From NCBI GenBank assembly GCA_021234155.1, contig JAJEKV010000071.1:2974483-3038482 (forward strand): a DNA stretch of 64,000 nucleotides, given 5' to 3'. A model generated the notes under the pieces. It did no database searches and was not told the origin of the DNA. It was given only the letters and a program-made list of their open reading frames with translations. Made by a program: the position numbers and the translations under genes. The DNA is from Isoetes taiwanensis (taxonomy: Eukaryota > Streptophyta > Lycopodiopsida > Isoetales > Isoetaceae). Shown in pieces: positions 617 through 47,479 of the stretch; within the stretch, counting starts at the first letter, position 1, and every line of letters begins with the position of its first letter.

Positions 617-1484
617 GAGCAGCACAAGGATAGGTTTTGTACGTACAGAATTATAGGTTCTGTACGTACAGGGAAACTATAGATATTCTTATTCTTTTTG
701 TTTAAGATCCATAGTAAGGAAGTCACCAGACAATCAAGTCTAGTAGACACCTTCATATCCTAACCATATCGGGTTGCGCCAAATGGACCATAGTGGACAT
801 GTATCAACAGAAAGTTCTGCTACGTCGGGGTTCATCATTAATATAACCCCTAGCAACTCCTATCAAGAAATGACATCTAAAGCAGGGGTTTGGACCCCTG
901 ACTAAAGTGCACAAATCTTAGGCATCACTAGGTATATATCAACTCGCCACACATCACTGAGGTTTCGCTTACGGGAAAAAAAAAAAAAAAAAAAAAAAAA
1001 AGGATAAAAAATAAGCGAAACTATTTTCACAGAAAAAGCGAAAACTATTTTCACAGAAAGCGAAACTTTTTTCGTAGTTAAAACACCTGATTTCGCTTTA
1101 CGCCAGTAAAATTCAAAATTATTATTATTTTTTTTTTCGGATTCTTTTTTCGCTTACGAGAAAACAGTTTTGTGTAAGCGAAACTGAAGGATTTTTTTTA
1201 TTTTTTTTTAATTTTCGCGTAAGCGAAACTGCTATTTCGCTTACGCGAAAATATTAAAAAAAAAGTGTTTTTTTTTTTTTGAAATTTCGCTTAAGCGTAA
1301 CCTCTGTTTTGCTTACGCAAAAAAAGTTTCACGTGAAGGTTTCGCTTACTCAAAAAATTTCCTACGCCGGAATTTTTTTTACCGTATTTTTGACGTATTA
1401 TACTTCAAATTTATGCCGTATCATTCGAATAATACGTATTGAGTATAAAACGTATACAATATTGAACCTATCCCTGGAGCAGCA
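617..1484. mobile_element. Short non-autonomous hAT-like element with 8-bp TSD
   Basis: The element proper is 625-1476 (852 bp). It is flanked by a perfect 8-bp duplication GAGCAGCA at 617-624 and 1477-1484. The left end reads CAAGGATAGGTTTTGTACG; the right end reads GAACCTATCCCTG, so the inverted termini are imperfect. The right end and its subterminal sequence (ATACGTATT, TATAAAACGTA, ATGCCGTATCATTC) match the right end of the 10.4-kb hAT element at 30220-40607, so both belong to one family. The interior is AT-rich with repeated GCGAAAC and CGCTTACG words and an A homopolymer near 977-1002. No transposase coding is present. Confidence 0.85.
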
Positions 1485-22894: not shown

Positions 22895-25800
22895 ATGGCG
22901 ATGCAATCCTCTTGTCTAGGCACCTCCTTGCACCTGTCTGCAGAAACCAAGCCCCAGCTATGGCAGCCAAAGCAGAATGGCCAAGGCCTCTCACTCTCTT
23001 CTCCAAGCCTTGGCCTACCACTGCAGCATTCCCTGCCTAGAGGACTCCATCATTCAGCTCATCAGCATCATTCAGCTCATCAGCATGCACAAATCACTCG
23101 ACCCGCCGCGCTCCGTGCTGCAATTGGGATCTCATTAGATCAGAAGGTGACCCTCAAGGGCACCATTGTTGTATATAAGAAGAATCTGCTTGATCTAACT
23201 GATACTGCAGCAGACGCTCAAGATGATACCCTTGACCTTCTTGGTCAGAAGGTCACCCTGCAACTCGTTAGTGAAACTCTTGATCCAGGTTAGTGCCTCA
23301 GTAAGAATCTGACTTTTATCATGTGCTTACTGCCCTATTCTATGATGAGTTTACTGGCATATTTGCTTGTTTTAAGTGTCAGTTTCTTATAATTCTACTT
23401 TAATTGTACCTTTATCTATCTGTATTGATGTTTGAGCAGCTACTGGAGATGGAAAAAAGACAGATCGCATCCCAGTCAACAATTGGTTTACCTCTAAGGA
23501 TCAGCTTGTAGATGGAGCAATTCGCTACAATATTGACTTCCCAGTTAGCAAGGATTTTGGCACTCCTGGTGCAGTGCTTGTACGAAATGCTCATCTTAAC
23601 CAGTTCTATCTTGACTCCTTCCGACTTGAGCTGCCGGATAAGAGCTCAATATTCTTTTCATGCAATTCATGGGTATATAACTATAAGAAATACAGTGCAG
23701 ACAGAGTCTTCTTCTCCAATAAGGTACTTAAACTGACTTTCTGAAAAGGTTTCTATTATATTTTACAGAGTAGTGTACTATATTGTGAATTTGCGAGGCA
23801 GCATTGAAAGTGGTGCAAACTTACAAAAGTAAGGTGGGCCAGACCACTGACATTCTATCTTCTTCTTGTTAGAAGAAGTCTGTAGTAGGGTACTATATTG
23901 TTAGTAGTGTACTATATTGTGAGGCGGCATTGAAAGTGGTGCAAGCTTACAAAGGTAAGGTGGACCAGACCACTGACATTCTATCTTCTTATTGTTAGAA
24001 GAAGCCTGTAGTGTACACTAAGGAGGGAAAAAGACAGCATTAGTTTTTGCTTAACTTAAAACAGAGAAGCTTCAAGGAAAAATATTAGTTTTGTTTACTC
24101 TGGTAGGCTGGCTAGTCTCCTGTAAAGGATGACATAGATTTAGCCTAACAAACAATTTGGTTATTATTCGCAGGTCTACTTGCCTTCAGAGACTCCGGCA
24201 GGATTGGTGAAGCTAAGGCAAAGCGAGCTTGCAAATCTGCGAGGAAATGGCACTGGAGAACGCCAAGAATGGGACAGGATTTACGACTACGCAACTTACA
24301 ACGACCTTGGAAATCCAGATTTGTCTCAAGATTTACAGAGACCTACATTGGGAGGTCCGACGCTGCCATATCCACGCCGGTGCCGGACAGGGCGTCATCC
24401 CACTTTAAGAGGTACTATAATACAAAAACCAGCAAAGATTTTCACATTCCATATGCCAGATTAAAAGATTTGGGCTAATCGACTTACTTTGAGAGCAGAT
24501 CCGACAGCCGAAAGCACTATCCTGTTGCCCTTGGTAGTGGATCCATACTTGCCAAGGGATGAGGTATTCAGCCAGGTGAAGTACTCCAGTTTTTTGGGCA
24601 GATCTCTGAAATCGGTAGGCCATGATATAGTCCCTGCTGTGGAAGCTCTGTTCGCCGGAAGGGCGAATTTCAAGGACTTTGCTGAAGTGAAGACCTTTTT
24701 TAATAATGGGATTGATCTTGGTACGACATTGCAAAACATTATAAGTAACGTTACGAAGCAAAGCCCTCTCACTCTCATAAGCGAGCTCACTGTTAGTCAG
24801 CAAACGAACCCTAGCTTGCTCCAGTTTCCTAAGCCCCAAATCATCCAAGGTACTACTACATTTCCAACCCTATTAAGCCTCTTAAATTCATTACTTACAC
24901 CATGGAAATGTACTGAATTCATCACTCACACCATTGAAATGTATAATTGTGTAGCCGACGAGGAGGCATGGATGTCAGACACCGAGTTTGCTCGCGAAAC
25001 ACTAGCAGGAGTGAATCCCTTGATTATTCAACTGCTAAAGGTAACCAAACAAGCTTTATTCTTATCTGAAATGTGTATTTAAGCTCTCATACTACAGGAA
25101 TTCCCTCCTCGAAGCAACTTAGACCCAAGTGTTTATGGACCACAAACATCATCCATTACAACTGAGTTAATTGAAGATCAACTAGAGGGATATACACCTG
25201 CAGAGGTAATTTTTCATAATTTGAGATCTCATTGCATTTGGATCTGAACAATTAATAGTTACATTTGCTTATCCAGGCCGTAAAAGCCAAAAAGCTCTTT
25301 GTGCTTGACTACCATGATGTATTGCTTCCTTACATAAGCAAGTTTAACAAGTTAAAGGACACTAAAGCCTATGCATCAAGGACCCTTTTCTTTTTGACCC
25401 AAGAGGGCACATTGAAGCCAATTGCCATTGAGTTATCTCTGCCTCCAGCTGAAACATCTGGACAAGCCAATAGAGTCTTTGTGCCCCCCAAGTCAGGAGA
25501 AAGGGATTGGTTGTGGGAACTTGCCAAGGCTTACGTTGCAACTAATGATTCAGGAATACATCAACTCGTTTCTCATTGGTAAATGGATCTCTCATCTATC
25601 CTATTTCTAATCCAAATGACTTTAATAACTCATTACTATTTCTTGCAGGCTTAGAACTCATGCATGCATAGAGCCCTTCATAATCGCAACCCACAGACAA
25701 CTGAGTGCACTTCACCCCATCAATCTCTTATTGCTTCCTCATTTCAAGAATACTATGAACATCAATGCCAAGGCTAGAGGCAATCTCATCAATGCAGGTG

Positions 25801-26761
25801 GTATTATTGAAAAAACATTTACACCAGGCAGATACTCAATGGAGGTTAGTGCGGTTGTTTATGACAAGCTATGGCGCTTTGATGAACAAGGTCTACCTTC
25901 AGACCTTATCAAGAGGTACTAAATAGTACTCCCTTTACTTTTTTTTTTGGGGGGGTCTTGAAACAAAACCATAAACGTGCTAATACTTGATGCCTATAAT
26001 CTTTTAGAGGAATGGCAGAATATGATGAAACAGCAAAGCATGGACTCAAGCTAGCAATTGAAGATTATCCTTATGCAGTCGATGGACTAGAAATTTGGAG
26101 TGCTCTAAAGCAATGGGTGGACGAGTATATTGCAATATTCTATAAAGATGACAAGGCAGTGTCATCAGATGAGGAACTGCAAAAATGGTGGACAGAAAGT
26201 AGGACAGTTGGTCATGCTGATAAGAAAGATGAGCCATGGTGGCCAGTACTAAACAGCGTGAAGAACTTATCTGAAACTCTAACTACAATCATTTGGGTAG
26301 CCTCTGCGCACCATGCAGCAGTGAACTTTGGGCAATACCCATATGAGGGATTTACACCAAATCATCCATCAAGGACCCACAAACTCATTCCAGAAATAGG
26401 ATCGCAGGAACATAACGATCTTCTTAAGGATCCTGAGAGATACTACTTGTCATGTGTGACCAACAAGATCGAGGCAGCTATTGTGATGACAGTCATAGAA
26501 ATATTGTCTACTCATGCAGTGGAGGAGGTGTACTTGGGGCAACCTTTGACAGAAAATTGGACTAGCAATGCAAAGGTCCTTGAAGCTTTCGACCAATTTG
26601 GGAAGAGAATCAAAGACATAGAGAACATCATAACTGAACGAAACAACGAGAGTAAAAATGTGAACAGACAAGGACCTGCAAAGGTTCCTTATACTCTTCT
26701 CTATCCTTCCTCTGAAAATGGCCTCACTGGAAAAGGAGTTCCCACTAGCATTTCCATATGA
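22895..26761 (+). CDS. LOX: Lipoxygenase LOX-A, plastid 13S-type, complete, nine exons
   Basis: Oxygenates linoleic/linolenic acid to hydroperoxides, the first step of oxylipin (jasmonate-type) synthesis. Exons: 22895-23288, 23440-23723, 24174-24411, 24499-24849, 24955-25040, 25098-25205, 25277-25578, 25649-25915, 26008-26761, all GT-AG and in frame, giving 927 residues. Start: ATG in GTCATGGCG; the frame extends upstream only without an ATG. Residues 1 to about 65 are Ser/Leu/His-rich and poor in acidic residues, suiting a plastid transit peptide. A PLAT domain follows (to about 230), then the catalytic domain with [43 protein letters not shown]. Predicted iron ligands are H582, H587 (HQLVSHW), H779, N783 (HAAVNFG) and the C-terminal I927. 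A630 sits at the Coffa position, implying S products; T644-F645 sits at the regiospecificity pair and, with the transit peptide, favours 13-LOX. Family assignment is firm; regiospecificity and location are inferred. Confidence 0.95.
23771..24014. repeat. 134-bp tandem duplication in LOX-A intron 2
   Basis: Units begin at 23771 and 23905 (TAGTGTACTATATTGTGA) and share GGCAGCATTGAAAGTGGTGC-like and CCACTGACATTCTATCTTC parts. It lies wholly within intron 2 and does not affect splice sites. Confidence 0.8.
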
Positions 26762-27338
26762 ATATGGCTGTCTTGTAATCCAATGCCTATATACATATAG
26801 CTCCAATATGTTCTACATTTAATGACTGCTACCACACTATTAGTTTGCCAAATAGCTAGAATGGACTAGAGGGCTTGAAATTTCACCCCCAAACAGCCCG
26901 TTCTTTCAAAGCGAAAAAACTAGTCGATCTCCACCCAATTGCCTGATCTGTCGTGCCTGATCTGTCATTCCAGATTAAGAGGCACCATTGATCTGCCTAG
27001 AGTTTGTAGGAAAACAACCAAAAAGAGAAAATTGGGGGCAAATCTCAAGCCCCCTTTTTTTTTCGTTGTAGAATTTTCGTCACCAAGAAAATTTTGCTTG
27101 AACTTTTTGGCAGTCGTCAGCTACCTTGCAGCCCGCCAGGTCAGCTGGCGGCCATCAAAAAACTACTTCGCGAAATTTCCTGCTGATGAAAATTTCTACT
27201 TCCTAAATTGTATATTCACATCTTGATTAACCTAAATCATATTTTTATGTATGCCCAATGTCTAAAGGTCCAATGAAAGGATAGAAGATTGTCAATAACG
27301 TGGTCGTGGTTAACATAGATGCGAATGTTCATGCGTGC

Positions 27339-27415
27339 ATATTTGCATAGTTTTTTTTTTTTTTTTTTTTGAAAGACGTCAGACTTTATTCAATCAAAGA
27401 GATATTTGCATAGTT
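27339..27415 (-). mobile_element. Ultra-short LINE insertion (about 49 bp) with 14-bp TSD
   Basis: A T run at about 27351-27370 followed by GAAAGACGTCAGACTTTATT and CAATCAAAGAG is the reverse complement of the 3' end of the LINE at 44339-45641 (CTCTTTGATTGAATAAAGTC then TGACGTCCTTCAAC). It is flanked by ATATTTGCATAGTT at 27339-27352 and 27402-27415. Copies B (about 42405) and C (about 53580) have the empty site. So this is a nearly complete 5' truncation that kept only about 30 nt of LINE 3' end plus poly(A). Confidence 0.85.
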
Positions 27416-27684
27416 ATGCTCATGTATGTCTAATAGTTAAAGGTCCATCAATGAAAGGATAGAAGATTGTTAACAACATGTACATATATGAAAAGTAGTG
27501 GACATACAAAAAGTACGTATTCTAGGCTGCTTTGTTAAAAACTTGCTATGGATATTGGTTAGTCGAAAGGTGTTATTCTAAACGAGGTGCACCTGGGACT
27601 ACTACAGTCGTCAGATTCGTCGATTTTACGACCCAGATCGTATGTTGGAGTCTGTGGACACCTATCATTCACTTATAGCATTTA

Positions 27685-27713
27685 CTAGAAATGTGTGCCC
27701 GGCGATGCCGGGC
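27685..27713 (-). mobile_element. Helitron 3' terminus (reverse), copy A
   Basis: Minus strand: hairpin GCCCGGC-ATC-GCCGGGC (27713-27697), then ACACATTTCTAG ending at 27685 with host A at 27684. It is present at the same place in copies B and C, so this Helitron was in the LOX 3' flank before the duplications. Its 5' end, somewhere to the right, was not recognised. Confidence 0.65.
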
Positions 27714-29609
27714 ATTAGTCATGGCATGTGGTATGGGCATGGAGTGCTTAGGTAAAATTAACTTGTTAGAGTAACAGATTGTGTAGATAAGAGAATGCTT
27801 AAATATAATGAATAGATATAGGGCAGAATAAAATTCTAGAGTGGAATAGGATAGGATGCATAGGTACAGTGGAATTGATACGATACCTTGTAGTGCATAT
27901 AGGGGGTCATATCATGGACAAATTTGCATCTAAAACATCAACTGGGATGCTATTGGCATTGTCGTTATAGACATCCGCCACAACCTGAATCTAAATGTAT
28001 GAACACTAATCATTAGAAATGTATAACTCATAACTCCGCCACAACTTGAATCTAAATGTATGAACACCAATCATTAGCAAATGTATAACTCATGACTGCT
28101 CCACATTTTGTTCTAAATGTGACAACTGTTAATATTGGCAGTGGGTGACATTTTTGGACTTTTTATGCTAACAACATCACATTGTTCCTCCAATAATAAA
28201 ATTATAAGTTCACATCACACTGTTTTTCAATTGAAAACACATTGTTGCTTATATAAGCAATGCAAAAACACATTGTTCCTTATATAAGGTAATGCAAGAG
28301 ACCTATTTCTATTCTAAATTATGCAAAAATAAATGGCCCCATAAGCGTAAATTTGGGCTTATATAATGACCCATTACAATGTTGCTTAAGGAATTATGTG
28401 GATTTTATAAATTATTTTTAATTGGTCAACTAACGAATCGGTTAAATAATAGTGAATTTGCTAGTTCAACTTACTAAGCAAGTTATAGAATTGATCATAT
28501 AAAAATTATGTGATGATTGCAGTCCATATAGAAACATCACTTTAACAAAGTTGGAGATAAGGGTTACAAACACATTCAAGAATATCTCCAACCTGTTAAG
28601 TCTTATATTAGACCTCAAAATATATTACAAAGTAAGGTTGGTTGCAAAATTTGACAATGATTCAAACTCTAGAAACATCCAATACTATTTTCGATGCAAC
28701 AAATAGGTTAACTAAGGTTCTGATAGATAATTCTCTATGCACACTTGGTTCTGTATAAGACTTCCAACCAATAAGTCCTTGAAGAATTATTGACAAACAA
28801 ACAGATCCCTCAATTGTTTGCGTACTTATGAAGGGGAACATTGGCACCACCAATTGATGGAATGATTACATTGACAGAACATTTGATGATGCAAAAGAAG
28901 GTTAATGTTTATTGCAGTAGGTGGGCATTCGAAAAAACAGAAAAAGCTTAAGGCTTGTTGTGCATCTGGTAATCAAGGAGTTATGTCCTGTTGGGTAACT
29001 CTTGTGCAGCTTTAATTCTGCAACGAACCTGCAGGAATAGGAACAAACATCAGGTCTAACTTATATCAACATGAGGCATCAGTTGAAATGACAATACTCC
29101 TAAAACCTTCAAAAAGTGAAACAAAACAATGTCGTACCAAATTGTTGGAGAGCTTGAGACACAAAAAAATGGACCAGATTTGCATATCCATAATACTACT
29201 GAAACAAAACTGCTTGAAACATCTGCAAATAAGGCACAACTTTGATGGAATTGCCATTGAATTAGACGATGAGAACGTGAAGGAATTGGCTATGGGTTCG
29301 ACTTGGAAGTTTCAGGCCATTTTTGTCACCTAAATCTGAATACAATAAAACTACATCAAAGTAGGAGGCTAACTAATTTGCCAAAAACTAAAGCACTTGT
29401 AGTTGGAAATTTAGTGTGCTCACAAGGATCGGGCACAATAAACCTGTAGATAACAAATCATACGTGAGCTTTCAACAAAACATAAAGGCTAGTCAAAAAC
29501 AAATTAGAGGGTTGTATCGTATTTGTCACAGCAAGAGCAACCATTCTTTTGATAATCTAACCAGACAAACAGCAATATCAACTCTTCTTTAGATATTCTA
29601 ATCATGCTT

Positions 29610-29618
29610 TGTCAGACA
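29610..29618. other. LOX-A flank / LOX-B exon 5 duplication junction
   Basis: The 9-mer TGTCAGACA is shared by both parents: the 3' flank (ATGCTTTGTCAGACAAATCC at about 45718 in B) and LOX exon 5 (GGATGTCAGACACCGAG in A at about 24970). On the left the sequence follows the flank, on the right exon 5. This is a clean microhomology breakpoint. Confidence 0.85.
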
Positions 29619-30219
29619 CCGAGTTTGCTCGCGAAACACTAGCAGGAGTGAATCCCTTGATTATTCAACTGCTAAAGGTAACCAAACAAGCTTTATTCTT
29701 ATCTGAAATGTGTATTTGAGCTCTCATACTACAGGAGTTCCCTCCTCGAAGCAACTTAGACCCAAGTGTTTATGGACCACAAAAATCATCCATTACAACT
29801 GAGTTAATTGAAGATCAACTAGAGGGATATACACCTGCAGAGGTAATTTTTCATATTTTGAGATCTCATTGCATTTGGATCTGAACAATTAATAGTTACA
29901 TTTGCTGATCCAGGCCGTAAAAGCCAAAAAGCTCTTTGTGCTTGACTACCATGATGTATTGCTTCCTTACATAAGCAAGTTTAACAAGTTAAAGGACACT
30001 AAAGCCTATGCATCAAGGACCCTTTTCTTTTTGACCCAAGACGGCACATTGAAGCCAATTGCCATTGAGTTATTTTTGCCTCCAGCTGAAACATCTGGAC
30101 AAGCCAATAGAGTCTTTGTGCCCCCCAAGTCAGGAGAAAGGGATTGGTTGTGGGAACTTGCCAAGGCTTACGTTGCAACTAATGATTCAGGAATACATCA
30201 ACTCGTTTCTCATTGGTAA

Positions 30220-30628
30220 CAGGGATAGGTTCTATACGTACAAAATTAAAATTCCTGACGTATAAAGTCAAAAAATACGTATTTTTTAATAAAATACGTA
30301 TTTAACATATAAAAACCTCGCCGGCCGGAAAAAAAATTTACAGACGTCTGAAAGCTTCCATGAAAAGCGTCTGTAAAGGTATTTCTAAGCCCAACCTTGC
30401 AATTTGCCACCCAAAACCTTTTTTTTTTTGTTTTTCTTAGTTTTTAGGGTTTTTTTGTTGTTTTTTGATAGGTAGGCCGGTTAGGTCCTTGATTAGGCCC
30501 TAGGCTTTTGTTGCCCCCCACGTGTAAGGGGCGTAACGATGGTGAGTGCCTTGTTCTGTGGGCTGAGCTTGGCCTATTTTAGAAAAAATAATAATAATAA
30601 TAATTTAAGCAAATAATAATTTAAGAGT

Positions 30629-30659
<31 letters not shown>

Positions 30660-31750
30660 GAAAAGAAATTGGTTGCCTTCCCTTAAACAACAACTGAGAG
30701 GGCTTTTTTAGGGTTGCGTGTTGCCAAGAGCATAGGCATGCCCCTTGCCTGGTATTGCCGCATTTATTTGCGCCATGCCGAGGGTGGGTGGCACTGCTGA
30801 AGCTTAAGGCAACTAGGGTCTCCCTTTAGTAAGAGTATAACCCTCGCCTGACGCCGTTGTTGGCCTTGGTCACGCGGTGTCGAATGGTGTGCGTTGTACT
30901 TTTATTAAGGGTTAGGAGAATGTTTTATCAATTCACACCCTAGTTCCTGATGGTGTTGTTGATGAAAGTCCGACACTAATATAGGAACTGGCGTATGTTT
31001 TGATAAGCATTCGATTGGTCTCGTCTTTTGAAAAAAGCGTGACCTAGGACAAGTGCAATGCATTTAAAACTTGCTAGCCTTGCATTTTGGAAGTAGCTGG
31101 GCTATAGATCATAAATCGTGTTTTGGTCCTTTTATTTGTTACCCTATCCTTGGCCTTGCACATACATACTCATGTTAGGGTCTTAGTGTAGGAAGCATAA
31201 AATTAGTGTTTTGTTTTGGTTAAAGTGAGTTGATTTACCCTCATGTGCTAAGCACTAAATTGAAAGTTTTATCTTTGCTTGACTTGTAGGTGTTGTTTGT
31301 TGTCGGTTGTGTATTATCGCGGAGTCGCATTTTGCTAGCCTGCTAGACAATCCCTTAAAACAAGAAGTATGACTTGAAGAGAGAGAGCGGAAGTTAACTT
31401 GCAACCAAATGTGGCATTAGTGTCTCTCGGATAGAGCCGCAACCAAGAGAGGCATTGGCGCTCAAACACAAAGCTACAGAGTCCGCAACTCGAAGTCATC
31501 TTCTCGCAAAGACCAGCGGCGAAAAGAAGTAGACCACAACAAGCATGGTCTACTTTGAGACCAGATTTCATGAACTGGTTGTGTAATCGGTACCGCATGC
31601 AATGCCTCACCAGATTTGGAATTGATTACTAGCAAAGAGGAAGGATGGCTAGACTACCATGCGTATCTGGTAAAAGATGCCGAGAGGGCTTTTAAGCTTC
31701 AATGATGGAGCTAGAGCCCGAAAAGAGTGAGCAAGAGAGGTATACGTGGA
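30220..31750. other. Left subterminal region of the hAT element, no gene
   Basis: Contains a T-rich stretch near 30420-30470 and an A run near 30630-30659. The inverted words ACAGACGTCTGAAAGCTTCC and AAAGCGTCTGTAA (30343-30378) are related to the GACGCTGAAA words at the right end. No coding recognised up to about 31.75 kb. Confidence 0.5.
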
Positions 31751-31781
31751 TAGTGGGTAATATTAGCCGCACTACCGCAAT

Positions 31782-33110
31782 ATGATCCGCGAAGTTGCAA
31801 ATTTGAGTAGTCATCGCTTGAGGCTAGAGTTGAAAGAAAAAGCCAAAGCCACATGGAATGCGGCGTGGACCAACAGAAAATTGAAGAAAGAGGCCCATCA
31901 ACCCCCCCATCTTGTTAAGAAAGTGTTGGCGCAAACCATAAAAGCCAAACGTCCTGGTGAGACAGATAGGGAGTGGGAAGCTCAGAGAAGAGCGGATGCC
32001 AAGACTACTTGGTTTGCCATGGTAGATTCATCACAAATAATAAAATGCATAAACAACGAATTGGTTCTCGGTTCATATGGTGCGGTGTATAAGTGCAATA
32101 TTTTAGGGTCTAGTTTTATTAGGATGAACCTTATTGTGTAAAACTTCAACATAATAATTTTCAGCATAGTACGTAACCCAATAAGTTAGTGGAAGCTATC
32201 TTTGAACATGAGGGAGTCAGAATGCAAGTTAGGCACGGGTGTATAATACGCTGCATTGGTAGCACAACCGGCCTAGAAAGACAAGACTTAATTTTCCCTT
32301 TTTGGAATGGAGGTTCGTTGGCAACCTTCTTTACAAGTCATGGGTCCAATGCCTTTGCAGAGCTTGCATTTAAGAAGTTGGGAGCTGTCCCCGTGAGTTG
32401 AGACGGTTTGAGGCTGCTTGAGGAGCCAGAAAAGAAAGAATTATTTGTTGCCTCTAGGGTTGGGGACTTAGCAATGTCATTCTCAGAAGGGCTCGAAAGC
32501 TCCATCAAGAAAGATATTTGCATATGGACTTGCATCCGGCAATATATTGCTCCATTTTGATTATGGAAAGGAGAAGGGATGTATTAATCCTCAGTCAGTA
32601 TACATTGGCATTTGTGATTGGGGTGAATCCAAAGGTTGATCCACGAGACAAAGGGAGGTAAAACGATGGCATTACAAGGGTATGGATGGCGAAGGTAAGA
32701 AAAGAATTGAGATGGAAAGGGCCGGGCATCCATATATGCATGATGATTTTTTTTGGTAGTGGCTCAAGACAAGGCACGCAAGGGTTGACTTTGATTTACA
32801 CGGGCAGCAGACATTGTCTACTACTTAGGCTGACTTTGCTAGTAAGCACTCCTACATGGAGTCAATAGGAAACTTGGAGCAGCAAGGCAAGCATCGGAGA
32901 ATGTGCGACTATTTGAAACATTGCGTTGAGTCGCCAATGAGGGACAAAACACGAAAATTTGATATGGCCCAGCTACTTGACACAATGCGGAGCAGTTTTC
33001 ATTGCTCTCCAATTCCGTGCACGAGGCCACAATTGGAATCAGATTGGATTCTTCAACTTGGCCAGGGTGGCGACGATGCATTAGACCAAGCTGGTCCTAG
33101 TCACGCCTAG
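31782..33110 (+). pseudogene. Protein-kinase-like remnant carried by the hAT element
   Basis: Fragments in consistent order but changing frame resemble an atypical protein kinase. NNELVLGSYGAVYKC (about 32054-32098) looks like a glycine-rich loop. VKLEAIFEHEG-like sequence near 32190 and CIIRCIGSTTG, DLIFPFWNGGSLATFF (about 32235-32335) look like the N-lobe strands and hinge. HMDLHPA then, after a one-base shift, NILLHFDYG (about 32520-32560) resembles the HxDLxxxN catalytic loop, with His-Pro where most kinases have Lys-Pro. GICDWGES (about 32612) stands in the DFG position as DWG. A C-terminal stretch ends at 33107 (DDALDQAGPSH). Upstream, a basic helical segment (KAKATWNAAWTNRKLKK) precedes the kinase part. 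At least three frame breaks make it non-functional. Its origin (host gene or long-term element gene) is unknown. Confidence 0.5.
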
Positions 33111-33368
33111 CGTGCATATTCACTTACATTCAAACATCCTTGTATTACATAATATTCCAACTAAATTCATTAAACACTTATCTGATGCTACATGAAAGAT
33201 TATTGTCTATGTGTGTTGTGTAGCTTAGTTTTCCTTTTCGTGTGTTTTTTGTGTTATTTATTCTATGCTTTTTTATATGTCGCAGCTAACGAACATTATA
33301 AAGACAAGAAGTCAAAGCACACCTATACAAGTCAGTCAGTGCACCTATAGAAGTCAGCAGTCCAAATT

Positions 33369-34770
33369 ATGTCCCACGAACAGGACGAAGAATTGAATCC
33401 TGACACACGGAATGTCGGTGCGTCAGAGCAGCAGGATCAGCATGGATTTTCGGTTCCCTCTAATTTGAGGACCCCCTCTACTCAGTCTCCTTGGCATCAA
33501 GGGTTGGAGAACGAGCTTGAGATGTCACCGCTTCGGCAAATGGAGAGAGCAAAGCAAGACATGCAAGGGGCGAATGAGTTTCGCACGCCGAGTTAAGAAG
33601 GTTGCGTCATGATGGATGAAGTTTCAAAGAGGGATAATTGCACCATCACAGAGGTGCATAATGTAGCCGGGCGAAGGCGGGGGCCCGGCTATTGTCCAAG
33701 TGGAGCGTACTCACGACGATGTAATCACAAATTTGGACAAGAATGAGTTTGAAAGTGAGTGGCCTAGTAGACGGGGTAAGTATAAGGCTCACGAGTGCAA
33801 GAATGCTGTGGTTCGAGCAAAAGCACTCGAGCGTCATGTCCAAGTGAAGGGACATTTACCCCACAAATCGGTGAGTTTAGTAAGAGTTTTATGCGAAAGT
33901 ATACTACGAGCTTGTGAAGGAAGTGCCCGTAAATTATGGGAGTAGGAAATGGAGGCAAGGAAGCGGTAGTGGCAAAGACGAAGAGGGTCAAGCTATCGGA
34001 AGATAGCGAGAGGGGGCCATATGGTGAGCCCATCACCATTACATACCTTGTTGCCGACGCTATCCAACTTTTGGAGGTGACAGGGGTAGCCGCGGCTGGA
34101 GCCGTGAATGACCTTGTGGATATTCGGGCCCAACTAGAGAATGAGAGAAGTCGGAACCTGACACTTTCTGAGGAGAATATTCGCTTGAAGGACCGTGCCG
34201 ATGGGTATGATAAGATGGCCGCTGAATTAGAGGACGCTAAACGGCAACTAGCGGCATTAAACAGGGAGGCAACGGTCCTTAGAGAAAACAACGAGCACTT
34301 GCGCAATTTGACCAAATCGTTAGACTCTGACCCTTTTAGGGTGACTTCTCGAGCGCCGATATCCTATCTCCCTCGCGAGTATTTGTATGAGAGTCAGTGG
34401 GAAGAGCTAAAGGTTGTTGATTACAGACATTGCCAATTTTGTGGTGACAACCTGACACAGGTGGGCTGGTACACTCTAGGGTGTGGGCATCGTATGCACA
34501 TGCGATGTGTTCTTGATTGATGTTGCAAAGCCGCTCGTCCAACCTTGCAAGACGGATGGATTTTTCCCCGAAAGTTACAATATGCCATATTTAATATGCA
34601 AGGTCGCATGCCAGCCAAGCCACATTTGACCACTCGCAGGAGGGATGGGCAGATGCACATTTTTCAAACCTTTCGCGAGATGGAATTGTGGAGGGGGTGG
34701 AGGAGCCGCGTGAAGGAGAGACAAAGCCGGACATTAACCGTTCTTACCACCACCTCCGTGGCTGCAGGGT
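33369..34770 (+). pseudogene. Coiled-coil plus RING-H2-like remnant carried by the hAT element
   Basis: An open frame at 33936-34520 encodes a heptad-rich segment (DIRAQLENERSRNLTLSEEN, then ELEDAKRQLAALNREATVL, residues about 60-125). It is followed by CQFCGDNL, WYTLGCGHRMHMRC, i.e. C-x2-C ... C-x-H-x2-H-x2-C, the first six ligands of a RING-H2 finger. A TGA right after VLD (34518-34520) cuts the finger before the CC pair that continues in frame (CCKAARPTLQDGW), so the last ligands are lost. The frames at 33369-33596 (acidic, MSHEQDEELNP start) and 33700-33945 may be the N-terminal part in other frames. RING-H2 proteins are usually E3 ubiquitin ligases; here that is only a family statement. 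With the kinase-like remnant just upstream on the same strand, they could once have been one gene. Confidence 0.5.
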
Positions 34771-34919
34771 GATTATATTGATCCAAATGACCAATGAAAA
34801 TGAGATATTACATTTTTAGACATGCCAAATTTTGACCTGTATCATTTTGTGAATGGCGGTATAATGACGTTATTTCAAACAAGGTGTAATGATGTTATCA
34901 AAGGATCGAGTAGTGCTCA

Positions 34920-36840
34920 TAGTAAAAGCATCGAGACTTCCAAATCGCTTTTCGCTTTTACGCTTGACGAGTAAAGGCATTGAGACTTCCCAATCTCTTT
35001 TATCCCGGCTTAGTCTCTTTTGTTTGTCCTAGTGGTCACCCCCGGCTCACCAGAGTCGAAGTCTCCTTCGTTTTCGCTTATCGTATCTAATTTGCCCCTA
35101 GGATGACATCGCCACCGGTGGCTAATTAGATACGCTAAGGTGAAACTTCGAAAGGGAGTAAGCCAAGAGCGCGACCCTCTTGGATGGTCATGGTTGGATG
35201 GTGAGTGAGTCAAAACATCTGCACACGCAACCCTCTTGAATGGTTGTCAGGTCACCAGGCCTTATATTCTCAGTGGCAAACAATATAGACTTCTCGAAAT
35301 TCTTGTTACCTCCTTTAGAAGGAGCGAGCTTTGTTTCACTCTCTTTATGCGTGTCTCTCGTCAATGTATCTTAGATACTTTGCTAGGTTATATTACACAA
35401 AGACGCCGCAAAATGGGGTCTGAGCAGTAAATCGCTCGCTCTAGAGGAGGTTACAAGGTTTTTGAGTACTCTATTTTTATTGTGGCCACGGAGGATATAA
35501 GGCCTAGTGGTTGCTTGCGATTCTGTGTGTTCATTAGATGTTAGTGATTGAAGCAAGCTTTGACTCCTGAATTCAAGCATCGAGACTTCCCCGTTTTTCT
35601 TTCCCAGGCTTTTGGGCAATGTAGCTTAGTTTACATGCTAAGTTCCATTGTCCAAAGACCCGGGGGAAAGCAAAGATTGGGACGTCTCGATGCCTGGACC
35701 CAGGTCTCGAGGCGTCAGAGGTGAGAGCGCACTCTAATTTCAAGCCAAAGTGGTGCCTGGGCGTTGTCCATCTATACAGTGGCTGTTAGGCACCAAATCA
35801 TGGAACATCCTAACTCCTTCTATTGATGGAGAACCTTGAGCATCACTATGACTTGAAATTGAGGACGCCACACGTTATCTTTGGTACGCCAAATTGCCAT
35901 TTGATGTTATCTGACCTATAATTTGTACCTCCATTCCTTTGGGTGGCACATGCCATGCAAACCCATTTGGGTATTCAAAATGCATGTGCCATCCAGAGGA
36001 ATAGAGTACGATTATAGGTCCGATAGCATTCAAAGCCCAATTTGGCATACCGGTGTCTTCCAACTCGCTCACCCTGCTTAGTCTCTTTCGTTTTCTGTTT
36101 TGTGTATCTAATTTTCCCCCCTAGGATGACATCGCCTCACTTTCGTGGCGTAATTAGATACGCCAAGCAGAAACTCGAAAGGGAGTAAGCCAAGAGCGCA
36201 ACCCTCTTGAATGGTTGTCGTCACCGTGCTTTATATTCTCCATGGCAAACAATATAGACTTCTCAGAAGGAGCTTGCGATTCTCGGGTTCATTAGATGTC
36301 GTTGATTGATGAGTTCAAGCATCGAGACTTCCCATCTTTATTTCCCCTCCTCTTTGGGCAATGTAGCTTAGTTTACATGCTAAGTTCCATTGTTCAAAGA
36401 GGGGTGAAAGCAAGGGTTGGGAAGTCTCGATGCTTGTACTGTGTCTCTTTCATCCCGGCCCGAGCGTGATCCTTCTTAATTGGATGTTAGTGATTGATGA
36501 GTTCAAGCATCGAGACTTCCCAATCTTTTTTCCCTCCTTCTTTGGGCAATGTAGCTTAGTTTACATGCTAAGTTCCATTGTTCAAAGAGGGGTGAAAGCA
36601 AGGGTTGGGAAGTCTCGATGCTTGTACCGTGTCTCTTCATCCCGCCCGAGCGATCCTTCTTGAATGGTTGCCAAATCGCCATTTGATGCCATCCGACCTA
36701 TAATTTGTACCTCCATTCCTTTGGGTGGCACATGCCATGCAAACCCATTTGGGTATTCGTGAGCATGTGCCACCCGCAGGAATAGAGTACAGATTATAGG
36801 TCCGTGATAGCATTCAAAGCCCAATTTGGCATACCGGGTT
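34920..36840. repeat. Array of long hairpins inside the hAT element
   Basis: Three kinds of inverted repeat recur. Type 1: arms CAAGCATCGAGACTTCCC / GGGAAGTCTCGATGCTTG, perfect at 36317-36436 and 36504-36624 and imperfect at about 35572-35696, each enclosing an inner inverted repeat around GGCAATGTAGCTTAG / CTAAGTTCCATTG. Type 2: CGTATCTAATT / AATTAGATACG at about 35084-35140 and 36103-36160. Type 3: ACCTATAATTTGTACCTCC ... GATTATAGGT, enclosing GGCACATGCCATG / GCATGTGCCA, at about 35908-36025 and 36698-36805. Related spacer sequence (AAGCCAAGAGCGCAACCCTC) separates them. No protein coding is seen. These could be transposase-binding or fold-back regulatory structures, or a source of small RNAs. 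Confidence 0.8.
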
Positions 36841-37500
36841 ATTCCCGACTTGGGTACCGGTACCTTGTGAACCTTCGATGGATCAGATTCGTCCGGGCTG
36901 GTCCGAGGTCATTTTTGGCCCTTCTTCATGCGAGATTACTTCTCATCAGCAAGATTCTCGCGCATGCGAAGAGGCAAGCAACAACGGAGGTCGAGACGGG
37001 TCTGATCCAACGGGTTTTCGTGGCACCGCGTTACACATGAAAGAAACATAGAAAGAAACATAGAAAGAACTATCATACATTAACGAAACATTTGTGACAA
37101 AAATTATAACCAAAAACTTCTTTTTATTAATAGTGCCGTGGACGGTTACAATAGTATGAAAATCCTCAAGACCAATTACAACAGACCAAGATACTCATCA
37201 CATCATTTTTTAGGCAGCGCCGCTTCTTCATCGGTTTCATCATTTGCGCCCATCCTCTTCTTGTTGGGAACCTAGGTTCAACCTCCGATGACCCTTTCCT
37301 TTAGTGAAACGCCCTCGAGACGTGTTTTTTCCTAGCCCGCTTCTCTGCTTGTCAAGGTAAAGCGCAAAGGTGAGTCCGTTGATCACGTAAGCCACCACGC
37401 CATCAACCGCATTGCTCGAACCTCGGCCTTTCAGATCGGACTCCTCGGTATCCTCGCCGCCGGGCTGATCCGTCTCGAGAATATGGCTTGGTCTATATCA
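36841..37500. other. Spacer before the hAT transposase, no gene recognised
   Basis: Contains GAAAGAAACATA direct repeats near 37040-37066 and a C/G-richer stretch towards 37.4 kb that may be the untranslated 3' end of the minus-strand transposase gene. No confident coding feature. Confidence 0.4.
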
Positions 37501-37509
37501 TCTTCGCCA

Positions 37510-39800
37510 TCAACGGCGGGTACGTTGAATGTCTTCATCAACATGGCTTGCGGCATTTATTGCAAGCATCTCGCCCTCACCGCCTTCGAGTCGCCCTCTT
37601 CCACTTCGAATCAGATCCATGAAAGGAAACTCAGAGCTTATCGATTGCGGATGTACCACCAAGTTACGATTCAATAGCCGCCAGTTTGAGAAGTTGTATA
37701 CAAGTTTGTCCGCCTTCTTATGTAGCAAGCGATCATGGTGACACCGTGTATGTACTTATAGGCACTCCAATTCCTCTCACTTGCACTATTGGAAGATACC
37801 AAAGAGAGGATAGTCATTGCAATTGCCTCCAAGGTATCGAGAACTTGCCCATGGGCTTGCCACCATGCATATGATTCCATATTTGGTTCCTTCTTATGAC
37901 TCTCCAGTCGGTCGTGAAGCTCTTCATCCGCCCACCTTCCACTCGGGTTCTCGGTATTCAGCTAACTCGCAATGAAAAGCTTGTAGTCCGAAATGTTGGG
38001 ATAGAACATTTTTGCAACCTTCTTCAACGACCCCATCACTTCTTTATCTCGTATGCTGGTCCATATCGTGGTTGTGTGGGTCTAAGGCATGCGCCAGCCA
38101 TGAAGATCACCGTATGACTTCTTCCATCGCTCATTGAAGTCTCTCGAGTAGTGCCGCGCTTAGCATTGTCAAATGGCGCATTGGGACCATCACGTTCTAG
38201 GAAGGATTGAATGGAGTGCCAACACCTCCGCATCCTTTCCGATTTGCCTTCGAAGAATCAAGGGTTTTGATGGCATGACAAACAAAGTTGCATGCACCTC
38301 ACAACATTTTTTACACCTTTCCAAAATGTCTCCCGCCCAAGCATTTCTCGGGGCGCAGCGGCTTTTTCGTCGGTGTTTGGCGGCACTTTTCCCTTTTCTC
38401 GCCTTCTTTCCCAATCAAAAACTCGTATGATTAAAGGTTGAGATAATCCAATCACGACACTTCAAAGACTCTTTCAAGACAGATATAATTAGAACCAAAC
38501 CCAAGTTTGCCCGAGGATTCATGAGTGCTAGGCTCTTCCTCGACGAATGACTTGTAAATGGCATAAATTGCCGGCTTCTTTGTGATGAATTTTACAAGCC
38601 GACGCCGCTTTCTCGAATGGGATCTTTGAACCACGTGTCTTTGGAGAACCAAATCCTTCAAAGAATAGGTTCAGGGCAATGGCATTGGCAACTAGTAGCA
38701 TGCAACCCCGAAATTCGCCTCCAAGAATTGACCCGCTAGCTTGCAATTAGACGCTATTATCCATTACAACTTGAAATATTCTCTTCGGTCCAAAACTCTC
38801 TATCACGGCCTTTGTTTTCCTCGAAAAATCCAATCTCCTCACTTGGTCGGGTTTTGGTTTCTACGGTTTTCAAAAATACTTCACCCCCGGATACACGATC
38901 ATGAAATTAATAAGATGGTCCTTGTTTACATTGCTCCAACCATCGGTCACTAATGAAGCCGGGCGCTTGCAAACCACACGACACAACTTCATCTCCACCC
39001 TCTCAACCATTTTTCCATGTATTTCATCAACCATCTTATTGTTGGCATGCTTGTATGAAGGCGCCTAAAAGCCGGTCCTGCTTTGGCAACTTCTTGAAGG
39101 CTTCTTTCATTGCTTTATGCTCCGTAATATGTGGAGACAACCCCAAAGATATAAAATGCCTCTACAACCTTCGGTTGTGTCTTCTTCAATTGCTTTCGAT
39201 GTTAAGCAATGATCAACCCTCTGTTGCTTCGTCTTTTCCACTATTTCAATTGTCTCTATCATTCTCGTTCTCCCCGCTTATACCTATTGACCCTAGTCCG
39301 CCCTCGACGGTATCTTTGTCCCAACAAAGGGGTGGTATAGTTATCTTAGATCGCCTACCCGCCCCGCTCTTGAGTATTCGTAACTTCGTCTTTTTCTCAT
39401 ATTATTCTTCGTTTTATGTATCCCATCCAAATGAGACAATCTCTCGATGGCATCCTTTCGCAAGTCGGCCAGATCACGCATACAAGTTGCGACACCGGCG
39501 TCTCGTTCACGTAAGATGTGAGCTCAATTCTTGTTGCAGAACCATTTACCGATGTGTATCCACAAAACACACATTCCCACTCATTTTTGCGCCAAACTCT
39601 TTCACAAACTCCCATTACGGGCCTCTTTTCCGACCCGCCAACTCCATCATCAGCGACCATGTGCACGAGTTGGGGTCCCTCGTGGCCCCCGCCACGGCAC
39701 ACGCAGATCCTCGCACCTCTAGAGGTAGATGCATGACCGCTACCGCCTCCGTAGGTAGATGCATGACCAAGAGCCACCATTGCTCGGACCGGTGACAATG
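37510..39800 (-). pseudogene. hAT transposase (BED - DUF659 - hATC), frameshifted
   Basis: Cut-and-paste transposase of the enclosing element, read right to left. At about 39650-39480 is a BED-type zinc finger (VWRKNEWECVFCGYTS, then GSATRIEL; C-x2-C visible). At about 38955-38690, with frame changes, is the DUF659 region (LVTDGWSNVNKDHLINFMI, then KAVIESFGPKR, LQASGSILGGEF). At 37880-37560 is the hAT C-terminal dimerisation domain (SSNSASERNWSAYKYIH, then QKADKLVYNFSNWRLLNRN), the most conserved hAT signature. Several frameshifts and stops separate these blocks, so the protein is not made from this copy. Long plus-strand frames over this region (for example 38953-39795) are antisense shadows. 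Strand and position, convergent with the plus-strand cargo, fit a mobile element that carries extra gene sequence. Confidence 0.8.
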
Positions 39801-40189
39801 TCTCTTAATCGACTCCTTGATTACACGAACTAAAGGAAGACGATATATGCAAAGGAGCAAGCTCACAATGCATATGTTATGTCGACGTTCGCGGCGAAGA
39901 ATCAAGGGGGTTGGACGAGACCCTATAGGATATTCTATGGAAGCGGATGCCAACCCAAAGTTGGAAACCACCGGGGCGGAGTAAACTCACGTTCCAAGAT
40001 CCAACGTCGGTTGTGACTCAAAAACGACACCTCAAAGGCAAACCGTTTCCCAAGGAGTATTTTGACTCAACCTCGGCGGTCAACGCTCGAGGTGAATTCT
40101 AGGGCTAATCCGTTTTTCTTATATATACTATTAACGATTGCCACAAAACAGGTCAAACAATTAGGCGCAAATATTTTTTTGCTTAGTAA

Positions 40190-40607
40190 ATCCCGGGCAA
40201 AACAAATTTAGAAAAATTTTTCGCGAAAAGGAAACAAAACCGCGACGCTGAAATATTTTTCGGCGACGCTGAAGATTATGTTTCGCAGACGCTGGTTCAA
40301 ATTATTTCGCGACGCCGAAAACTCTTAACCGCAGACGCTAAAAAAATTCGCGTCTGTGGCGGTGGCGTCGTTTTTCGTCTGCATTTTAAAAATTGGTTTC
40401 GCGTCAGACGCTGAAATCAGAATTCGCCAGACGCTGAAAATATTTTCGCAGCGTGCTGTTTTTGTTGTTTTCGCAGACGGCGAAAATTTTCTGACGCCGG
40501 AATTGTTTTCTGCCGTATTTTTTGTGTTTTATACGGCAAATTTGTGCCGTATCATTCAATTCATACGTATTCCGTATAAAACGTACAGCGTATTGAACCT
40601 ATCCCTG
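40190..40607. repeat. Right subterminal repeats and TIR of the hAT element
   Basis: At least six copies of GCGACGCTGAAA/CAGACGCTGAAA-like words occur between about 40240 and 40510, then GCCGTATAAAA- and ATACGTATT-type words and the terminal GAACCTATCCCTG. Such motif clusters are the usual binding platform of hAT transposases. The last 100 bp match the right end of the small element at 625-1476. Confidence 0.75.
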
Positions 40608-42675
40608 ATTGGTAAATGGACCTCTCGTCTATCCTATTTCTAATCCAAATGACTATAATAACTCATTACTATTTCTTGCAGGCTTAGAACTCATGCATGC
40701 ATAGAGCCCTTCATAATCGCAACCCACAGACAACTGAGTGCACTTCACCCCATCAATCTCTTATTGATTCCTCATTTCAAGAATACTATGTCCATCAATG
40801 CCAAGGCTAGAGGCAATCTCATCAATGCAGGTGGTATTATTGAAAAAACATTTACACCAGGCAGATACTCAATGGAAGTTAGTGCGGTTGTTTATGACAA
40901 GCTATGGCGCTATGAACAAGGTCTACCTTCAGACCTTATCAAGAGGTACTAAATAGTACTCCCTTTACTTTTTTTTTGGGGGTCTTGAAACAAAACCATA
41001 AACGTGCTAATACTTTGATGCTATAATCTTTTAGAGGAATGGCAGAATATGATGAAACAGCAAAGCATGGACTCAAGCTAGCAATTGAAGATTATTTTTA
41101 CGCAGTCGATGGACTAGAAATTTGGAGTGCTTTAAAGCAATGGGTAGACGAGTATATTGCTATATTCTATAAAGATGACAAGGCAGTGTCATCAGATGAG
41201 GAACTGCAAAAATGGTGGACAGAAAGTAGGACAGTTGGTCATGCTGATAAGAAAGATGAGCCATGGTGGCCAGTACTAAACAGCGTGAAGAACTTATCTG
41301 AAACTCTAACTACAATCATTTGGGTAGCCTCTGCACACCATGCAGCAGTGAACTTTGGGCAATACCCATATGAGGGATTTACACCAAATCATCCATCAAG
41401 GACCCACAAACTCATTCCAGAAATAGGATCGCAGGAACATAACGAACTTCTTAAGGATTCTGAGAGATACTACTTGTCATGTGTGACCAACAAGATCGAG
41501 TCAGCTATTGTGACGACAGTCATAGAAATATTGTCTACTCATGCAATGGAGGAGGTGTACTTGGGACAACCTTTGGCAGAAAATTGGACTAGCAATGCAA
41601 AGGTCCTTGAAGCGTTCGACCAATTTGGGAAGAGAATCAAAGACATAGAGAACATCATAACTGAACGAAACAACGATAGTAAAAATGTGAACAGACAAGG
41701 ACCTGCAAAGGTTCCTTATACTCTTCTCTATCCTTCCTCTGAAAATGGCCTCACCGGAAAAGGAGTTCCCACTAGCATTTCCATATGAATATGGCTGTCT
41801 TGTAATCCAATGCCTATATATATATAGCTCCAATATATTCTACATTTAATGACTGCTACCACACTATTAGTTTGCCAAATAGCTACTAGAATAGTCTTAT
41901 GTCAAAATGTATAGCATCAAACCTAGGGATATTTGCATTATTGAGTATCGAAAAAAAGGGGGCTTGAAATTTCACCCCCAAACAGCCCGTTCTTTCAAAG
42001 CAAAAAAACTAGTCGATCTCCACCCAATTGCCTGATCTGTCACACCTGATCTGCTTAGAGTCTGTAGGAAAACAACCAAAAAGAGAAATTTAGGGGCAAA
42101 TTTCAAGCCCCTTTTTTTTCGTTGTACAATTTTCGTCACCAAGAAAATTTTGCTTGAAAGTTTCTGGCAGTCGTCAGCTGCCTTGCAGCCCGCCAGGTCA
42201 GCTGGTGGCCGCCAAAAAACTACTTCGCGAAACTTTCTACTGACGAAAATTTCTACTTCCTAAATTGTATATTCACATCTTGATTAACCTAAATCATATT
42301 CTCATGTATGCCCAATGTCTAAAGGTCCAATGAAAAGATAGAAGATTGTCAATAACGTGGCAGTGGTTAACATAGGGGCAAATGTTCATGCGTGCATATT
42401 TGCATAGTTATGCTCATGTATGTCTAATAGTTAAAGGTCCATCAATAAAAGGATAGAAGATTGTTAACAACATGTACATATATGAAAAGTATTGGACATA
42501 CAAAAAGTACATATTCTAGGCTCCTTTGTCAGAAACTTGATGGATATTGGTTAGTCGAAAGGTGTTATTCTAAACGAGGTGCACAGGACTACCACAGTCG
42601 TCGGATTCGTCGATTTTATGACCCAGATCGTATGTTGGAGTCTGTGGGCACCTCTCATTTCACTTATAGCATTTA

Positions 42676-42704
42676 CTAGAAATGTGTGCCCGGCGATGCC
42701 GGGC
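42676..42704 (-). mobile_element. Helitron 3' terminus (reverse), copy B
   Basis: Same hairpin GCCCGGC-ATC-GCCGGGC and CTAG end as at 27685, with identical flanking bases; it was duplicated together with the LOX 3' flank. Confidence 0.65.
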
Positions 42705-44321
42705 ATTAGTCATGGCATGTGGTATGGGCATGGAGTGCTTAGGTAGAATTAACTTGTTAGAGTAACAGATTGTGTAGATAAGAGAGTGCTTAAATGTAAT
42801 AAATAGATATGATGGAATGTGTAGGGCAGAATAAGATTCTAGAGTGGAATAGGATAGGATGCATAGGTACAATGGAATTGATACGATACCTTGTGGTGCA
42901 TATATGGGGTCATATCATGGACAAATTTGCATCTAAAACATCAACTGGGATGCTATTGGCATTGTCGTTATAGACAACCGCCACAACCTGAATCTAAATG
43001 TATGAACACTAATCATTTGAAATGTATAACTCATAACTCTGCCACAACCTGAATCTAAATGTATGAACACCAATCATTAGCAATGTATAACTCATGACTG
43101 CTCCACGTTTTGTTCTAAATGTGACAACTCTTAATATTGGCAGTGGGTGACGTTTTTGGACTTTTTATGCTAACAACATCACAATGTTCCTCCAATAATA
43201 AAATTATAAGTTCACATCACACTGTTTTTCAATTGAAAACACATTGTTACTTATATAAGCAATGCAAAAATACATTGTTCCTTATATGAGGTAATGCAAA
43301 AGACTTGTTTCTATTCTAAATTATGCAAAAATAAATGGCCCCATAAGCGTAAATTTGGGTTCAAAGTTATGACCAATTTAAGGAATTATGTGGATTTTAT
43401 AAATTATTTTTAATTGGTCAACTAATGAATCGGTTAAATAATAGTGAATTTGATAGTTCAACTTACTAAGCAAGTTATAGAATTGATAAAAAAAATGTGA
43501 TGATTGCAGTCCATATAGCAACATCACTTTAACAAAGTTGGAGATAAGGGGCACAAACACATTCAAGAATATCTCCAACCTGTTAAGTCTTATATTAGAC
43601 CAATACTATTTTCGATACTATTTTCGATGCAACAAATAGGTTAAAAAAATAGGTTAACTAAAGTTCTGATAGATAATTCTCTATGCACAGTTGGTTCTAT
43701 GACAAACAAACAGATCCCTCAATTGTTTGCTTACTTATGAAGGGGAAGATTTGCTTCACCAATTGATGGAATGATTACATTGACAGAACATTTGATGATG
43801 CAAAAGAAGGTTAATGTTTATTGCAGTAGGTGGGCATTCAAAAAAACAGAAAAAGCTTGGGGCTAGTTGTGCATCTGGTAATCAAGGAGTTATGTCCTGC
43901 TGGGTAACTCTTGTGCAGCTTTAATTCTGCAACGAACCTGCAGGAATAGGAACAAACATCAGGTTTAACTTATATCAACATGAGGCATCAGTTGAAATGA
44001 CAATACTCCTAAAACCTTCAAAAAGTGAAACAAAACAACGTCGTACCAAATTGTTGGAGAGCTTGAGACACAAAAAAATGGAGCAGATTTGCATATCCAT
44101 AATACTACTGACCATTTTGTCACCTAAATCTGAACACAACAAAACTGCATCAAGGTAGGGGACTAACTAATTTGCCAAAAACTAAACCACTTCTAGTTGG
44201 AAATTTAGTGTGCTCGCAAGGATCGGGCACAATAAACCTGTAGATAACAAATCATACGTGAGCTTTGAACAAAACATAAAGGTTAGTCGAAAACAAATTA
44301 GAGGGTTGTATCGTGTTTGTC

Positions 44322-46980: not shown

Positions 46981-47479
46981 TCTATATATAATACTAAAGG
47001 ACTTTTAGGATAGTTTGTGCGCAATCCTGCCCCTTAATTAATTTAATTTAGTTTGATCCATTTGATTTACGGTTTTATTTGACGCGCACTTATACAAAAA
47101 CTATTAGAGACTACAATGGCAATGGCTAGGTATTTTGGACCGAGTAGTCCGTTTGAAAGAAAGGTGATCAGGCAGCCGATCTATACACTAATGCGTGATG
47201 CTGGAACTGGTATTAAACACTTGAGAAAATTGAAATTACTTATGATCATGTCCTAAAATTAATTGAAGGTAGAATTCGTGAATGTGGGCTACCATAAAGA
47301 CCATGCTGTACTACATTCTGGTGGCCATGGAGCCATTTCGCTCATGATGATTATTATGTGGCAACACAAGGTAAAGAGTCTATTCATCTCTATTACAAAT
47401 ATGGTTTTTATCCAAAATAGTTTTGCATTCCAGTTAGCTTTGAAATCGCGAAAATGGGTCGCCAAGAAGATCTTGTGTG

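Follow-up and report, generated by a model that had tools for sequence, protein, structure and literature searches.

The window, a 64,000-nucleotide stretch of the Isoetes taiwanensis genome, consists of plant-like, nuclear DNA and contains a complete hAT-type element (Table 1). The gene order of the element is a plus-strand kinase, a plus-strand coiled-coil/RING-like gene, a 2.4-kb spacer, and a minus-strand hAT transposase. The first two genes (the cargo) are convergent with the transposase, and all three are interrupted in this copy. The sequence-only reading had recognized kinase and RING-H2-like motifs on the plus strand, convergent with a minus-strand hAT transposase, and these were found in three interrupted frames. 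It had described two remnants within 31782..34770; the location and the interruptions were correct, but both genes extend beyond that span, and the frames are probably not all true remnants.

Table 1. Features of the element and its surroundings (positions in the window)
Feature	Position	Strand	Remarks
Complete hAT-type element, 10,388 bp	30220..40607	.	Ends CAGGGATAGGTTC...GAACCTATCCCTG; other copies colinear
Left target-site duplication ATTGGTAA, 8 bp	30212..30219	.	
Right target-site duplication ATTGGTAA, 8 bp	40608..40615	.	
Kinase gene, ~575-590 aa in open copies, interrupted here	~31369..33110	+	Start by eye against MTSEERAEVN of L013
Coiled-coil/RING-like gene, ~470 aa, interrupted here	~33369..34797	+	Limits by eye against L011
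Non-coding spacer between the convergent genes	34798..37202	.	Repeated long hairpins
hAT transposase, interrupted here	37203..39900	-	Stop by eye; N-terminal limit approximate; Dimer_Tnp_hAT 3.2e-6 in the window
Empty target site ATTGGTAA within the tandem lipoxygenase copy	25575..25582	.	Flanks 98.7% and 97.3% identical
Short non-autonomous relative, 852 bp, lacking the cargo	625..1476	.	Perfect 8-bp target-site duplication GAGCAGCA at 617-624 and 1477-1484

The terminal inverted repeats are short and of the CAGGG type, as in hAT elements. Two of the three units with both ends seen have an 8-bp target-site duplication, namely the window element and a second full unit with both ends present on contig C1067 (ACCAGAAG); in the copy on C1010 the right end is damaged and no duplication was found. 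A lipoxygenase exon lies at 29896-30216 (Pfam 3.1e-46), and the lipoxygenase copy with the empty site spans 24973-26858. The window copy is one insertion, by eye apparently just inside a lipoxygenase intron. Closely related lipoxygenase sequences form a tandem array at 24973-30219 and 40605-55604, and the flanks are duplicated. The TTTCGCTTACGC subterminal repeats of the short relative resemble those of a diverged element described below (L034).

The open reading frames of the window alone are weak evidence of coding: on both strands of 31200-34850, the longest observed frame (199 aa, minus strand) was equaled in 12 of 300 dinucleotide shuffles, and a 278-aa stretch with one stop was reached in 4 of 300. 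The kinase motifs LVLGSYGAVYK, HMDLHPA, and ICDWGE are present where they had been reported, in interrupted frames. In Pfam searches, the window kinase pieces alone gave a sub-threshold match to PK_Tyr_Ser-Thr (E 0.061), and the read-through with X at the breaks matched at 2.9e-9 and 37.1 bits (cut-off 23.1). Unmodified kinase frames from other loci scored 46.0 and 43.8 (L013), 43.2 and 37.3 (L032), and 28.6 and 33.3 bits (L034) against PK_Tyr_Ser-Thr and Pkinase, with cut-offs of 23.1 and 31.7 bits, respectively. The protein resembles the protein kinases of PF07714 and PF00069 in these above-cut-off matches and in its catalytic residues. It differs from them in HMDLHPGN and CDWGE, in an N-terminal part of about 230 residues for which no Pfam family reached its cut-off, and in its very remote relationship to solved kinases (best PDB sequence E 0.0016; profile E 0.00089). 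A TFIIF_beta match (E 0.003-0.0064) was sub-threshold. The suggestion of an atypical kinase holds in part: HRD is replaced by HMD, K after the catalytic Asp by H, and DFG by DWG, but all seven rows compared retain the Lys, the catalytic Asp, the Asn, and the Asp of DxG (EPYCVK, HMDLHPGN, ICDWGE). Substitutions in the glycine loop are Glu for one Gly in L035 and Ala for another in L031 and L032. Judged by these residues, the cargo kinase need not be a pseudokinase.

The RING-like pattern CQFC...CGHRMHMRC was also found at its reported place in the window, in an interrupted frame. The window pieces alone remained sub-threshold in Pfam (zf-C3HC4, E 0.063), and the unmodified frames of L011 and L034 passed the zf-C3HC4 cut-off of 21.0 with 22.2 and 23.7 bits. 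For zf-RING_2, the same frames gave 26.0 and 25.4 bits, under the cut-off of 27.3, and a consensus gave 29.0. The kinase and RING profile searches that the sequence-only reading had proposed, with a lack of matches counting against it, were thus positive for both genes on real frames. A RING has eight metal ligands. The family A pattern is C-x2-C-x13-C-x-H-x2-H-x2-C-x10-C-P-x-(M/L), with D or E at the last position in L034 and L035, so the motif is RING-type by profile but keeps only seven of the eight usual ligands, the last Cys being missing; for this reason we refer to the gene as RING-like. The nearest PDB entry was AMFR (E 0.00082), and the nearest by profile was an E3 ligase (E 0.0007); lectin matches from a PDB sequence search look like chance.

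For the transposase, Dimer_Tnp_hAT scored 27.3 bits in the window and 35.4 bits (9.6e-9) in L034 (cut-off 21.4), and DUF659 scored 99 bits (2.6e-28; cut-off 34.7) in L011 and 28.7 bits, below the cut-off, in a partial piece of L034. The window piece with X joins matched no family for the BED zinc finger, and in the C1067 and C1010 copies a C-x2-C motif is visible by eye. No copy examined gave a transposase that was both complete and open. The spacer contains three kinds of long imperfect hairpin in two to three copies each (for example, 36308-36442, 36496-36630, 35884-36030, and 36668-36815), and seven folded stretches gave z values of -3.7 to -12.0. Spacer blocks are 98.6% identical to L034 over 148 positions and 91.9% over 533, and the hairpins may have a role in termination, in small RNAs, or in movement.

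Further copies were sought by a DNA search of the same genome (1.66 Gb, 1110 contigs) with a 2,989-base query, in which the best 40 of 722 first-look candidates were scored. The 41 matches listed, including the window, are 86-100% identical, and 39 of them cover at least 2,500 of the 2,989 bases. Twenty further copies of this family (family A; L009-L028) were chosen by cargo match, so that carrying the cargo is partly built into the sample and the frequency of cargo-less elements is not readable from it. The cargo region aligned in all 20 (in L018 only to query base 3460 of 3651). Of the 18 copies whose stretch extends to the transposase side, 17 continue through the transposase, by matches of more than 150 bases, up to the limit of the stretch; L026 breaks off after about 500 bases of it, and L009 and L010 are outside this count because their stretch was taken on the other side. 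The exact GGGATAGGTT left end is present in 19 of the 20, with different flanks, and L019 has a left end of only 84% identity. The cargo moves with the element. The sequence-only reading would have accepted chance capture if the cargo occurred in a single copy nearly identical to a host gene; with 20 further copies this is not the case, and a single host-gene capture is ruled out by copy number and divergence.

The same reading had raised the possibility that the cargo is intact in other copies, and unmodified open frames of each gene were found in different copies: a 574-aa kinase frame in L013, with its tail frameshifted relative to L010, a 432-aa kinase part in L010, and a 476-aa RING-like frame in L011. 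A frame longer than 400 aa occurs in only 4 of the 21 family A copies, including the window (L010, L011, L013, and L024), and none of the 21 copies read has both cargo genes open.

The stops and frameshifts of the window copy and of most family A copies could mean that the cargo is dead and that these loci are decayed pseudogene copies and old remnants. When family A copies were compared with L013, 5.30 copies per column differed at CAG/CTG versus 0.96 elsewhere, 2.99 versus 1.22 at CG, and 2.81 versus 1.27 at CCG/CGG; five control motifs gave 0.63-1.71, and columns within or adjacent to CG/CNG, 27% of the total, accounted for 67% of the differences. The window itself differs from L013 at 78 of 306 CAG/CTG columns and at 146 of 3315 others. 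CAG is misread mostly as CGG, CAAA, CAA, CGT, and CG, and at times as TAG, and CTG mostly as TTG, followed by CCG. TTG, CAA, and TAG are also products of deamination, which speaks for decay, but the remaining misreadings, among them the leading CGG and CAAA, are not. Moreover, the lipoxygenase flanks in the window have no such excess (CAG/CTG columns, 1 of 48 and 2 of 108; others, 7 of 562 and 35 of 1176). For the methylated CC(A/T)GG (Dcm) sites of bacteria, errors in nanopore consensus sequences are documented (PMC6591954). This pattern suggests that much of the breakage of the window copy at CAG, CTG, and CG is probably base-calling or assembly error at methylated sites, whereas part of the cargo damage is surely genuine. 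Dead cargo is mostly ruled out by the error pattern, the clean lipoxygenase flanks, and the open frames of L011, L013, and L031-L035, together with the constraint described below, and we regard it as very improbable. The clustering of copy differences at CAG/CTG/CG in the L009-L028 cargo alignment is also a reason for caution about assembly quality when pseudogenes are called in this genome. More generally, errors at methylated motifs can make repeat copies resemble pseudogenes in long-read plant assemblies.

Five diverged loci (L031-L035) have open kinase frames of 596-621 aa. The full layout was found in one of the five, L034, which has a left end as in family A, an open kinase, a mostly open RING-like gene, the spacer, and pieces of a minus-strand hAT transposase. 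The RING-like frames are 448 aa in L034 and 428 aa in L035, and the full matches contain one TAG in L034 and one TGA and one TAG in L035; stop-free RING-like matches of 63-66% identity occur at six loci (C1107, C1034, C379, C1040, C50, and C1030). L035 (9.9 kb) contains the cargo with no match to the spacer or transposase, and no RING-like gene was found near the kinase at L031, L032, or L033. Among the matches listed (76 merged kinase loci and 90 RING loci), at least 29 kinase loci are followed within 4 kb by a RING match on the same strand, none has one within 4 kb upstream or within 8 kb on the opposite strand, and 47 have none.

Selection was estimated by NG86 on open frames, with L013 trimmed at both ends. 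For the kinase, dN/dS was 0.135, 0.138, 0.124, and 0.143 between lineages A and B (dS 0.80-0.97); 0.087, 0.105, 0.060, 0.078, and 0.097 between A and C, where dS is saturated (2.4-3.5) and one pair was not computable; and 0.106 between B and C for one pair, five pairs being not computable. Within lineages, it was 0.186 for B and 0.198, 0.252, and 0.236 for C; the value within A (0.305, L013-L010) comes from noisy copies. The RING-like gene gave 0.235 within C, and between A and C, where the ratio was not computable, pN was 0.230 and 0.258 against pS of 0.790 and 0.802. Transposase dN/dS was 0.271 within A and 0.232, 0.211, 0.210, and 0.139 between A and C (dS 0.59, 0.66, 0.44, and 1.28), the last from 49 codons. 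Selection on the cargo is purifying. Collecting the copies and examining the cargo for such selection, as had been proposed, thus gave cargo in 20 copies and kinase dN/dS of 0.06-0.25 in the comparisons between lineages and in those within B and C. The idea of a long-term passenger agrees with these 20 copies, with the same layout in the diverged L034, and with the purifying selection.

The constraint could nevertheless belong to host genes, if host kinase and RING genes had been captured repeatedly by chance (transduplication) and selection acted on the sources. DNA transposons of grapevine offer known cases of such transduplication (PMC2528002), and it would suit the many broken A copies and the kinase loci without RING (L031, L032, and L033); the kinase loci listed are also the best-scoring candidates, and any weaker, possibly host, relatives would lie outside. 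However, the same two genes recur in the same order and orientation in families at saturated synonymous divergence, and among the matches listed all of the kinase-RING pairs, at least 29, are co-oriented. A, B, and C also have non-coding sequence in common upstream of the kinase, and a common kinase captured recently would not stand as far from every solved kinase as this one does. Repeated capture is accordingly judged quite unlikely.

The modules of the element have not diverged equally. L034 is 80.2% identical to family A in the transposase region, 70.7% in the kinase, and 67.8% in the RING-like gene, and synonymous divergence agrees, cargo and transposase differing greatly; the modules have therefore seemingly been exchanged. 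The two halves of the element have different histories, most simply through recombination between elements.

A kinase relative also lies beside a Helitron replicase. At L032 (C941; L032:2296-8596), an open B kinase is followed after about 240 bp by a 1417-aa frame that matches Helitron_like_N (1.8e-34) and PIF1 (6.4e-49), as a RepHel protein does. A 1501-base junction query, for which the best 40 of 489 candidates were scored, gave one further whole match (G000:C1058:628328-629822, 93%), and the same junction is present in two halves on C1081 (5869677-5870063 and 6059735-6060858) that meet near query base 387. The C1081 halves, which are separated by about 190 kb, lie on opposite strands, and have about 10 bases in common at the break, look like an inversion. 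The kinase might be a selfish passenger, moving from one transposon type to another, rather than a hAT feature as such. The recurrence of the junction fits this, and so do the distances of the A kinase, which is nearer to the B kinase, at dS 0.8-1.0, than to the kinase of the hAT-borne C lineage, where dS is saturated. On the other hand, kinase and RING-like gene remain paired in hAT elements. Among the matches listed, four RepHel loci show a match that begins only at query base 619, a little ahead of the frame, but this may reflect divergence of the upstream non-coding DNA. Helitrons end in TC at the 5' side and in a hairpin and CTRR at the 3' side. The B kinase may adjoin rather than lie inside the Helitron, which may have landed next to an old kinase copy; by eye, the first intron of the replicase gene may also contain the kinase. 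A selfish passenger of this kind is unlikely, in our estimation, though less so than repeated capture.

In summary, we consider it likely that this is a plant hAT family whose kinase and coiled-coil RING-like genes move together with it, are maintained by selection, and may act for the expression or movement of the element, the window copy being one insertion probably broken largely by assembly error. Several observations, all counts and comparisons being from one genome, stand against this reading: the cargo-less relative in the window, the 47 of 76 listed kinase loci without RING, L034 as the sole diverged locus with the full layout, the lack of a family A copy read with both cargo genes open, the seven-ligand RING, and the L013-L010 dN/dS. 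The kinase and RING-like genes lie between the left end and the transposase and travel with the element. In the proposed mechanism, the predicted active kinase would phosphorylate host or element proteins, and the RING-like protein could work with an E2 in ubiquitin transfer despite the missing last Cys. By analogy with VANC proteins and fungal TET cargo, we infer that the element would be expressed or moved more, most likely through blunted host silencing or through stabilization or control of the transposase. A bolder possibility, offered tentatively, is that kinase and RING form a host-modifying module exchanged among hATs (the kinase also with Helitrons) and kept for disarming silencing or licensing transposition; if true, this would be a plant counterpart of fungal TET/JBP transposon cargo that uses phosphorylation and ubiquitin instead of demethylation. 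Plant cut-and-paste transposons are usually viewed as a transposase plus, sometimes, dead gene scraps. A kinase and a RING-like gene kept working across deep divergence suggest that transposon-host conflict makes use of phosphorylation and ubiquitin, and the cargo genes provide concrete, testable proteins.

Our search of the open-access literature gave no earlier account of a plant hAT with kinase and RING, and tblastn with a few peptide patterns in viral and genome contig collections, no plant collection among them, gave no cargo relatives. The VANDAL transposons of Arabidopsis belong to a superfamily other than hAT. Their VANC anti-silencing proteins are, like the cargo products proposed here, accessory proteins of a plant transposon that help the element, but they are sequence-specific proteins (PMC10398659, PMC5735166) and are a possible functional analogue. 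The grapevine DNA transposons of PMC2528002 include hAT elements with 8-bp target-site duplications and carry extra gene sequence through transduplication; the captured pieces are described there as mostly non-functional pseudogenes, whereas the Isoetes cargo is open elsewhere and constrained. The nearest precedent comes from fungal transposons whose cargo is TET or alpha-kinase: in rust fungi, hAT7 and IS3EU DNA transposons carry TET/JBP genes, and IS3EU also alpha-kinase genes (PMC12730594). In both cases, an enzyme gene lies beside the transposase, hAT and Helitron are among the carriers, and the cargo is common to several superfamilies; in TET-bearing IS3EU, transposase and alpha-kinase are oppositely oriented, as here. 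The rust elements differ in being fungal and in their enzymes, since TET/JBP dioxygenase and alpha-kinase are other families, and the passages of that source on cargo describe no kinase-plus-RING pair such as the one carried by the Isoetes element.
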